From an uncultured Bacteroidales bacterium (lineage in GTDB: Bacteria > Bacteroidota > Bacteroidia > Bacteroidales > F082), in assembly GCA_947305795.1 (NCBI GenBank), contig CAMZEK010000006.1, positions 20,554-84,553 of the forward strand: a stretch of DNA of 64,000 nucleotides, written 5' to 3'. The notes under the pieces are model-generated. The model saw nothing but the letters and a program-made list of their open reading frames with translations, was not told where the DNA came from and made no database searches. Both the position numbers and the translations under genes were made by a program. The first letter of the stretch is position 1; the number at the start of each line of letters is the position of its first letter. Shown piece after piece: positions 4,721 to 36,429 of this stretch.

Positions 4721-5566
4721 TTACATTTTGGATAGAAGTTGGCTCGAAGTAATCTCCATCTTGCTGAAAGCGAACCATTTTTTGCCCAAGTCTTTCATTG
4801 ATGCGCCGATGTGATATACGGTTTCGTCAATCATCAAGAAGCGGTCGTGTGATTGGGCAAATTCTATGGCATCAATTGGCTCATATTGTGTATTGTGCAA
4901 GTTGATGTCGTTTTGTAAAGTGGGACTTATTTGACGGGTGTATATGGTGGCTTTTACACCCGCAGAACGCTTGTCAAGTAGTTTCAAAACAGTATCGTCT
5001 ATATAATTGTCAATCAAAGTGATGCTGTTTTTTGCGGAGCGAATCAAATCGCTGACAAAAACATGGGCATCAAACACTTGGCCTTCATAGAAGATACCTT
5101 CGGCAGGTGGAAGCGAGGTGCGGACAAAGAAGTCTATCTTTTCGGAGTGTTCAGCGAGCAGGTTTTGTTGGTTTTCCAACTGGTTTTCGATTTTTATAAG
5201 TCGTTGATTCAGAGAATAGCCTTTTAGTAAATAGTCTTTTAGAACTTTATTGGCCCATTGGCGGAATTGGATACCGCGTTGTGATTTTACCCGATAGCCA
5301 ATGGATAAAATCATGTCCAAATTATAGTGCTCAACTAAATAAGTTTTGCCATCTGTAGCAGTTGTCGCAAATTTTGCGACAACTGGAAGACCTAATAATT
5401 CTTCAACAAGCGCATTATTAATATGCTTACCTATGGTTTTGATGTCTCTGTCAAACAACAAAGCCATTTGCTGACGGTTAAGCCAGACAGTTTCCTCCTC
5501 CAAGCGAACTTCAAGTTGTACATTTTCGTCATGTTGATACAATATAATTTCCCCGGTTTGCTGCAT
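4721..5566 (-). CDS. RhuM-family protein with C-terminal PLD-like domain
   Basis: RhuM core VVAKFATTATDGKTYLVEHYNLDMILSIGYRVKSQRGIQFRQWA; C-terminal HDRFLMID HKD-like motif. ATG at 5566 chosen; the listed 5590 start is TTG. Confidence 0.8.
   Translation of the reverse strand: MQQTGEIILYQHDENVQLEVRLEEETVWLNRQQMALLFDRDIKTIGKHINNALVEELLGLPVVAKFATTATDGKTYLVEHYNLDMILSIGYRVKSQRGIQFRQWANKVLKDYLLKGYSLNQRLIKIENQLENQQNLLAEHSEKIDFFVRTSLPPAEGIFYEGQVFDAHVFVSDLIRSAKNSITLIDNYIDDTVLKLLDKRSAGVKATIYTRQISPTLQNDINLHNTQYEPIDAIEFAQSHDRFLMIDETVYHIGASMKDLGKKWFAFSKMEITSSQLLSKM
5359..5385. repeat. Perfect 27-bp palindrome inside the RhuM CDS
   Basis: CAGTTGTCGCAAATTTTGCGACAACTG, 13-bp arms around one base. Confidence 0.95.
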
Positions 5567-5587
5567 AATTAATGGTAGATTATCCGA

Positions 5588-5595
5588 CAAAAGTA
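5588..5595 (-). promoter_or_regulatory. Putative -7 box TACTTTTG of the RhuM-PLD gene
   Basis: Plus strand reads caaaagta; a TTTG lies at 5618-5621, 22 bp upstream, as a -33 candidate. Confidence 0.55.
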
Positions 5596-5609
5596 ATGAT
5601 TTTTCGTTT

Positions 5610-5670
5610 AGTTATCGCAAATTATGCGACAACTGAAAACTTTTCAACTGTCGCATTTTTTGCGATAGTT
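5610..5670. repeat. Two palindrome copies related to 5359-5385, arranged as a 61-bp dyad upstream of RhuM
   Basis: AGTTATCGCAAATTATGCGACAACT (5610-5634) and AACTGTCGCATTTTTTGCGATAGTT (5646-5670). Confidence 0.9.
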
Positions 5671-5736
5671 ACCAATCTATGCGTTTATTGCACAAGTTGA
5701 ACAACCGAGAAACTCTCGGCAGTTGATAAGCAATCC

Positions 5737-6531
5737 TTACAAACTGATTTCAAACCCATCCCAATCCGGTCCCAAAGGAAACTTCTCCCGAAAATGCTGC
5801 AACTTTTCATAATCCAAAGTGCAGTGCAGCACAGCTTCCTGATAAGGTTCTGCTTTGGAAATAATCTCGCCACGGGAGTTAATCACCTGTGATTCACCGC
5901 TGTAATGTAAATCGTTGGCATCTTCGCCGACACGGTTCACGCCAATCCAATAGGCTTGGTTTTCGATGGCGCGAGCCACGAGAAGCGTGTTCCAAACTAC
6001 CATCCGCGAATCGGGGAAATTGGCGAGATAGAACCCCAAATCATACTCATACTGACCGTTTGCGTAACGGTTTCTTGCCCAAATGGGAAAACGGATGTCG
6101 TAACACACCATCGGCCTGATGCGCCAGCCTTTGAGTTCTACAATCAATTGTTTATCACCGCGTTCTACTAATTGGTCTTCACCACCCATGGTAAAAGTAT
6201 GCCGCTTGAAGTACAGTTCATAGCTACCGTCAGGTCGCATCCAAACGAGGCTGTTGTAATAATGCCCATCAATGTCCAAAGGGAATGTGGTGCAAATCAC
6301 GGCGTTTTTGGCCTTGGCTTGGTTTTTCAGCCATTGCATGGTCGGACCATCAAGGGTCTCGGCAAACTGTTTTGGGTTGACGGGGAAGGCCGTGGTAAAG
6401 GTCTCAGGCAAGAGAATCAAGTCCGTTTCGGGCTGCACTTGTTTTAGTAAATCATTGAAATGCTGTAAATTAGCGGTTTTGTCCTCCCATTTCAGGTCGG
6501 CTTGGATGTAGGCGATGTTGAGGTTGGGCAT
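5737..6531 (-). CDS. Nitrilase-superfamily carbon-nitrogen hydrolase (omega-amidase/Nit2-like)
   Basis: LLPETF, VCYDIRFPIWARN catalytic contexts; start MPNLNIAYIQADL. Confidence 0.85.
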   Translation of the reverse strand: MPNLNIAYIQADLKWEDKTANLQHFNDLLKQVQPETDLILLPETFTTAFPVNPKQFAETLDGPTMQWLKNQAKAKNAVICTTFPLDIDGHYYNSLVWMRPDGSYELYFKRHTFTMGGEDQLVERGDKQLIVELKGWRIRPMVCYDIRFPIWARNRYANGQYEYDLGFYLANFPDSRMVVWNTLLVARAIENQAYWIGVNRVGEDANDLHYSGESQVINSRGEIISKAEPYQEAVLHCTLDYEKLQHFREKFPLGPDWDGFEISL

Positions 6532-35979: not shown

Positions 35980-36429
35980 TCAAAGTAGCATGAAATTGGG
36001 TAAACAGTGTTTACCTTTTTCAGTTTGAATTTTCAAACCAGTGTTTTGGATTTTGGAATGACCTAAATTGGGTAACCGCTGGTTACCTTTTTTAGTTTGA
36101 ATTTCGTAACCAATGTTTACGGAATTGGAATAAATAAGATAAAATTTGCGAATCGACTTTAAGTTTTCCACCGACCAACCTTTTCCAAGTCTATCTGTTA
36201 ACCTTCCCGACAATTCCACCAGCACCTGCTTTCCATACTTTGCCCTATATTCGCCTTCTTGCTCATCTTCAACGATATAGCGACCAATCTCATAATAAGT
36301 GTAAACCATGGCGGTATTCACGGCTGTGACGACTTTGTTTCGTGCTTCGGCCATGAGTTTGGCAATACGGTCGGAAAGAGCATCTATTCGATTGCCTTCC
36401 AAGTGTGTCAATCCTTTGTCTTCATCCAT
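35980..36429 (-). pseudogene. DUF1016/YhcG-like N-terminal domain, truncated, ending in a palindromic repeat tail
   Basis: AVNTAMVYTYYEIGRYIVEDEQEGEYRAKYGKQVLVELSGRLTDRLGKGWSVENLKSIRKFYLIY matches the DUF1016 N-domain; no C-terminal nuclease domain before pfkA. Confidence 0.7.
35988..36131 (-). repeat. Two tandem in-frame 72-bp palindromic units
   Basis: Ungapped period of 72 bp; palindromes at 36105-36121, 36071-36087, 36033-36049, 35999-36015. Confidence 0.92.

Follow-up and report, generated by a model that had tools for sequence, protein, structure and literature searches.

Intragenic operators are known from autoregulation and from transcriptional roadblocks, as in lac O2 within lacZ, the internal gal operator in galE and the PurR site in purB. 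In Bacillus subtilis, parS, which is one invariant sequence, lies inside the parB/spo0J gene. The HsdS subunits of type I restriction systems undergo shuffling of their target-recognition domains. Like the lac, gal and purB operators, the palindrome described here in rhuM is a candidate repressor site in transcribed coding sequence, with or without further sites at the promoter; unlike them, it makes up the wing codons of its own predicted binder, is found family-wide, and covaries with the recognition helix. As with parS, a DNA-binding protein would have its site within its own gene, but the RhuM site diversifies along with the protein. As in HsdS, specificity segments are swapped inside otherwise conserved genes; the RhuM target differs in being a palindrome that the swapped segment itself contains. 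A further likeness is to RptR, which represses defence islands and is an autorepressor at repeated promoter palindromes (PMC12255303). RhuM is likewise predicted to be the autorepressor of a defence locus with repeated palindromes in its promoter; unlike RhuM, RptR is all-helical and has 6-bp promoter sites, and the part of its description drawn on here mentions no coding-sequence site (PMC12255303).

RhuM is an uncharacterised family present in phage satellites, prophages, plasmids, type I restriction loci and Salmonella SPI-3, and has variously been labelled a virulence or a toxin protein. In a Rhodobacter plasmid, rhuM lies between hsdM and hsdS. A search of the open-access literature found no prior report of the RhuM palindrome.

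The rhuM gene of the window and its palindromes

The window is a 64,000-nucleotide stretch from the genome of an uncultured Bacteroidales bacterium. The features of its rhuM locus are the following.

4721..5566, minus strand: rhuM-PLD CDS (281 aa, ATG 5566), encoding a wHTH, a long helix and a PLD-fold C-terminal domain
5359..5385, centre 5372, no strand: in-CDS palindrome CAGTTGTCGCAAATTTTGCGACAACTG, a predicted operator, encoding wing-strand residues 62-69
5426..5449, minus strand: codons 40-47, start of the recognition helix (R40 D41 I42 K43 T44 I45 G46 K47), which specify the palindrome core by covariation
5588..5595, minus strand: TACTTTTG, a Bacteroidota-type -7 box, conserved as TATTTTTG in orthologue L043
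5609..5635, centre 5622, no strand: predicted upstream operator 1 (25-nt form AGTTATCGCAAATTATGCGACAACT, 5610-5634), overlapping the -33-like TTTG
5618..5621, minus strand: TTTG, resembling a -33 element, within operator 1 and separated by 22 nt from the -7 box
5645..5671, centre 5658, no strand: predicted upstream operator 2 (25-nt form AACTGTCGCATTTTTTGCGATAGTT, 5646-5670), 36 bp from operator 1
5699..5725, no strand: RhuM-type palindrome of a different class (CCGAG), CAACTGCCGAGAGTTTCTCGGTTGTTC on the minus strand

The gene product is a member of the RhuM family PF13310 (84.3 bits against a Pfam gathering cut-off of 33.7) and matches the profile of the PADLOC phage-defence candidate PDC-S05 over residues 1-280 (E=4.4e-129). 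ATG 5566 is its likely start codon; a start at TTG 5590 would run into the proposed -7 box. In an AlphaFold (AF2) model (mean pLDDT 78.7, pTM 0.44), the wHTH comprises a helix at 31-37, the recognition helix at 42-55 and wing strands at 63-69 and 75-81, and is followed by a long helix (96-150) and then the C-terminal domain. The best Foldseek matches were TrmBL2 regulators and PLD-fold proteins, e.g., NucT and FAM83. The wHTH, coiled-coil and PLD-fold architecture is like that of TrmB/TrmBL2 (E=5e-7), but the overall superposition is poor (TM 0.3) and comes without a sequence match, a resemblance of fold only. In a phmmer search at E<=10, no PDB chain, whether of the TrmB family or another, matched the window RhuM by sequence.

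The first-pass annotation had placed variants of the in-CDS palindrome (inner span 5360-5384) at 5610-5634 and 5646-5670 and had joined the two in a larger dyad. Their positions and their likeness to the in-CDS copy were confirmed, and the pair is nested in one inverted repeat with arms at 5613-5639 and 5641-5667, which are 85% complementary and separated by 1 nt. The promoter-like elements had also been placed correctly on the minus strand, with the -7 box at 5595-5588 and TTTG at 5621-5618. Their spacing of 22 nt looks slightly long for a Bacteroidota promoter, and orthologue L043 has a -7-like box and a spacing similar to those of the window gene. Transcription would be expected to begin near 5581. 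The TCGCA cores are intact in both half-sites at all three sites; the upstream sites differ at the centre and at position -8 while keeping both cores. The promoter sites are of the same class as the CDS site, 250 bp away, or about 24 helical turns. A decayed rhuM CDS was considered as a source of the upstream sites and rejected, no rhuM-like frame having been found.

The palindromes lie downstream of a hydrolase gene, between its stop codon (5737) and rhuM, a location that would suit an intrinsic terminator for that gene, one of the alternatives raised by the first-pass annotation. However, the same palindrome occurs inside CDSs, and a scan of 5300-5800 for terminator-like sites (a stem-loop followed by a U-tract) found 0. 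We consider a terminator extremely unlikely.

The CCGAG palindrome at 5699-5725, which the first-pass annotation had missed, is of the class also carried by the CDSs of L257 and L236, and is predicted either to be bound by another RhuM or to be a relic. Besides the window gene, a single rhuM was found in the window genome; it lies on contig C43 and is of the TTCC class, as against the CCGAG of this palindrome. Elsewhere in the window, positions 35993-36131 hold an imperfect tandem repeat with a 72-bp unit in 1.9 copies.

A palindrome at constant codons in rhuM genes

We compared 294 RhuM domains from Bacteroidota together with proteobacterial, streptococcal and Wolbachia-phage examples, the non-Bacteroidota sample amounting to about a dozen genes. 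In 288 of the 294, a palindrome is centred on the same codons, those of the first wing strand. It is present in rhuM genes of Salmonella, Aeromonas, Vibrio, Rhodobacter, a streptococcal phage and a Wolbachia phage; a Gordonia phage rhuM gene likewise has a palindrome, but lies outside the aligned set. Position and palindromicity are directly visible in the DNA. The location is constant, while the sequence and the encoded peptide are lineage-specific (VVAKFATT, VVKESLTT, TVRNFRTV, TCSILEHM, NVHFLHIA and others). In a non-redundant set of 278 domains, pairs 3-7 match by Watson-Crick rules in 98-100% of cases, and the types of pair vary. Synonymous-codon shuffles reach a palindrome score of 2.79 against an observed 8.95, which indicates that selection acts on the DNA.

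A perfect dyad within an mRNA will fold, and the first-pass annotation had offered as a second alternative an RNA hairpin, through which the transcribed palindrome would control translation or mRNA decay. Such a hairpin should tolerate G-U pairs. Over pairs 3-12, however, G-T mismatches number 30 and A-C mismatches 31, and this absence of a G-U bias points to a duplex-DNA dyad rather than an RNA hairpin. Moreover, the core follows the DNA-recognition helix (see below), and no Rfam family matched the palindrome. Control through an RNA hairpin is, in our judgment, very improbable.

In the window's own genome (an assembly about 80% complete), the strict pattern has 3 occurrences, all at this locus. 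Across 394 Bacteroidales genomes, the strict CGCA-class pattern yielded 36 sites and a reversed control pattern 0, so that chance does not account for the palindromes. At rhuM are 34 of the 36, with 30 in rhuM CDSs and 4 directly upstream of a same-class rhuM (two of these being the window's); of the two outliers, one lies in a reading frame at a contig end that has no RhuM domain, and the other beside ftsH. The CAAG class gave 21 sites in 148 genomes, every one (21/21) in a rhuM CDS, and all 19 legible helices at these sites are KQNxSLH. In L274, a CGCA-class palindrome at 1501-1525 encodes EVVAKYATT near a contig end, where no RhuM domain was detected.

The first-pass annotation had said that a palindrome scattered genome-wide would count against its idea of an operator for the encoded protein; instead, the sites are almost confined to rhuM. 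Taken with the covariation of helix and palindrome, this near-confinement strongly supports that idea. The mixed-class intergenic palindromes upstream of a few rhuM genes might instead suggest a dispersed mobile palindromic repeat (REP-like) that lies in rhuM by chance. We find this hardly credible: both classes searched genome-wide are nearly confined to rhuM, helix residues specify the core, and the many copies scattered between genes that typify REP elements were not found, all 3 copies in the window's own genome being here.

Correspondence between recognition helix and palindrome core

The palindrome core, defined as positions -7 to -3, corresponds to residues at the start of the recognition helix. 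The base at -4 goes with residue 47 (K with C, 93/94; L with A, 60/61; E with G, 47/47; R with C, 38/38; M with A, 10/10; Y with G, 9/9), the base at -7 with residue 42 (R with G, 56/56; K with T, 99/100; Q with A, 15/15) and the base at -6 with residue 43 (K with C, 63/63). The residue-base chemistry (Arg/Lys toward G, Glu toward C, Gln toward A) agrees with known protein-DNA contacts. Half-site centres are 10 bp apart, which is one helical turn. The window helix, DRDIKTIGKH, is of the CGCA class, in which K precedes the conserved His in 55 of 56 cases; its pairing with the core fits the family covariation, on a statistical rather than a biochemical basis.

Cassette hitchhiking was considered as the cause of the covariation and rejected, the residues between helix and palindrome carrying little information. 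Corrected MI with the half-site averages 1.23 bits for residues 40-47, 0.26 for residues 48-60 and 0.11 for the N-terminus; residues 48-60 sit nearer the palindrome than residues 40-47, yet carry less MI. With so little MI between helix and palindrome, linkage alone would not produce the covariation.

Prediction of the core from the nearest neighbour in helix sequence succeeded at 0.93 with no exclusion, and at 0.87 and 0.85 when neighbours of at least 80% and at least 60% identity were excluded; from the nearest neighbour in flank sequence, the corresponding values were 0.44, 0.24 and 0.04. Trained on Bacteroidota, helix prediction was right for 8 of 9 cores outside that phylum, and flanks for 0 of 9. 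These correspondences argue that the helix of RhuM very probably reads these palindromes.

Helix and palindrome are also exchanged together. Outside residues 33-85, same-locus orthologues of the window gene differ little, yet their helices and palindromes differ together. The rhuM alleles at selC in E. coli CFSAN051542, E. coli U12A and Salmonella Infantis are 82-100% identical in DNA from CDS base 300 on and 35-60% identical over bases 120-300, with the helix-palindrome pairs TQH-GTAAG, NEH-TCCGG and SEH-TTCGG across the three. Judged from these alleles, the helix is swapped along with the palindrome between E. coli and Salmonella. The DNA-binding segment of the U12A type is present in 843 E. 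coli genomes, that of the CFSAN051542 type in 3 and that of the Salmonella type in none.

Most E. coli, K-12 included, match a rhuM fragment alone, annotated as a pseudogene in those examined; in K-12 MG1655, the short fragment beside selC (L303, 1502-1663) adjoins tRNA-Sec. The C-terminal part of rhuM is mostly retained in about 847 E. coli genomes.

Upstream sites and the proposed control of rhuM

Upstream of 284 rhuM genes, we found 20 intergenic palindromes with a RhuM core, in 11 loci. Only 4 of the 284 genes have such a palindrome with their own core: those of the window, L110, L257 and L034. In L034 the site is 388 bp upstream and may belong to a neighbouring gene. As own-core upstream sites are rare, the promoter arrangement is a local feature, and the in-CDS site must serve some purpose by itself. 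We considered and rejected a general match between upstream copies and the CDS palindrome of the same gene: an upstream copy is absent from most rhuM genes, and L043, L208, L209, L213 and L110 include upstream palindromes of foreign class. Orthologue L043 keeps promoter sites of classes that mismatch its own helix. In L208, L209 and L213, whose rhuM is of the TTGCA class, an upstream pair of GTGCA and TCAAG palindromes is conserved 27 bp apart, and cross-regulation is possible. More generally, a foreign-class upstream site may be left over from an earlier specificity or may be bound by a paralogue. L110 has four upstream palindromes in which GTAAG and TCGCA classes alternate, which suggests two RhuM specificities acting on one promoter. 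L016 has a run of several closely spaced rhuM genes of different classes. Paralogues of one genome were not significantly orthogonal (same-core pairs 8 of 105, against 9.6 expected).

The best explanation of the palindromes, and a probable one, is that they are operators of RhuM itself, with negative autoregulation likely in the window. Negative autoregulation by RhuM is rated likely since two sites of the same specificity lie at and upstream of the window promoter. In the mechanism that we propose, in which physical binding, the geometry of the dimer, the activity of the promoter and the direction of regulation are inferred, the two recognition helices of a RhuM dimer would enter neighbouring major grooves, at the two TCGCA half-sites. 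Operator 1, lying across the -33 element, would block RNA polymerase with the assistance of operator 2, and the in-CDS site would serve as a transcription roadblock. The putative operator lies within the wing-strand codons of nearly every rhuM gene, so that helix and operator would travel as a single cassette, both by descent and in exchange. The palindrome may also be contacted by the very wing strand that it encodes.

The first-pass annotation had gone further, suggesting a repression loop between the sites at the promoter and the one in the CDS. The window promoter is flanked and followed by sites of one class, 250 bp apart, and the arrangement in L110 is similar. However, this layout is not conserved, the in-CDS site standing alone in most rhuM genes, and we regard looping as doubtful. 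A different use of binding would be to tether or park RhuM on its own gene without transcriptional control, for example with a nuclease or toxin domain held inactive until competing DNA titrates RhuM away. The nearly universal single in-CDS site and the rarity of promoter sites would suit tethering, as would the variable C-terminal domains (a PLD fold in the window, Fic/Doc in Aeromonas and Vibrio), the match to a PADLOC defence candidate and the proposal, in a 2013 survey, of RhuM as a toxin domain (PMC3710099). Against tethering, two window sites lie at and just upstream of the promoter, and the best fold match is to TrmB/TrmBL2 regulators; we think it unlikely.

The rhuM gene may be self-referential: the DNA that encodes the wing would be the sequence that the domain reads, and specificity and target would form a portable cassette swapped by recombination. 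On balance we lean slightly toward this reading. In such a gene layout, an operator evolves jointly with the domain that is predicted to read it. Each RhuM specificity class has a predicted DNA target, readable from the helix residues or from the gene's own DNA, which makes the RhuM regulon and role directly testable. If these readings are true, a self-referential rhuM would provide every RhuM, across phyla, with a self-control circuit of its own, and the natural rhuM alleles, as a dataset, would yield a readable code for wHTH-DNA recognition.
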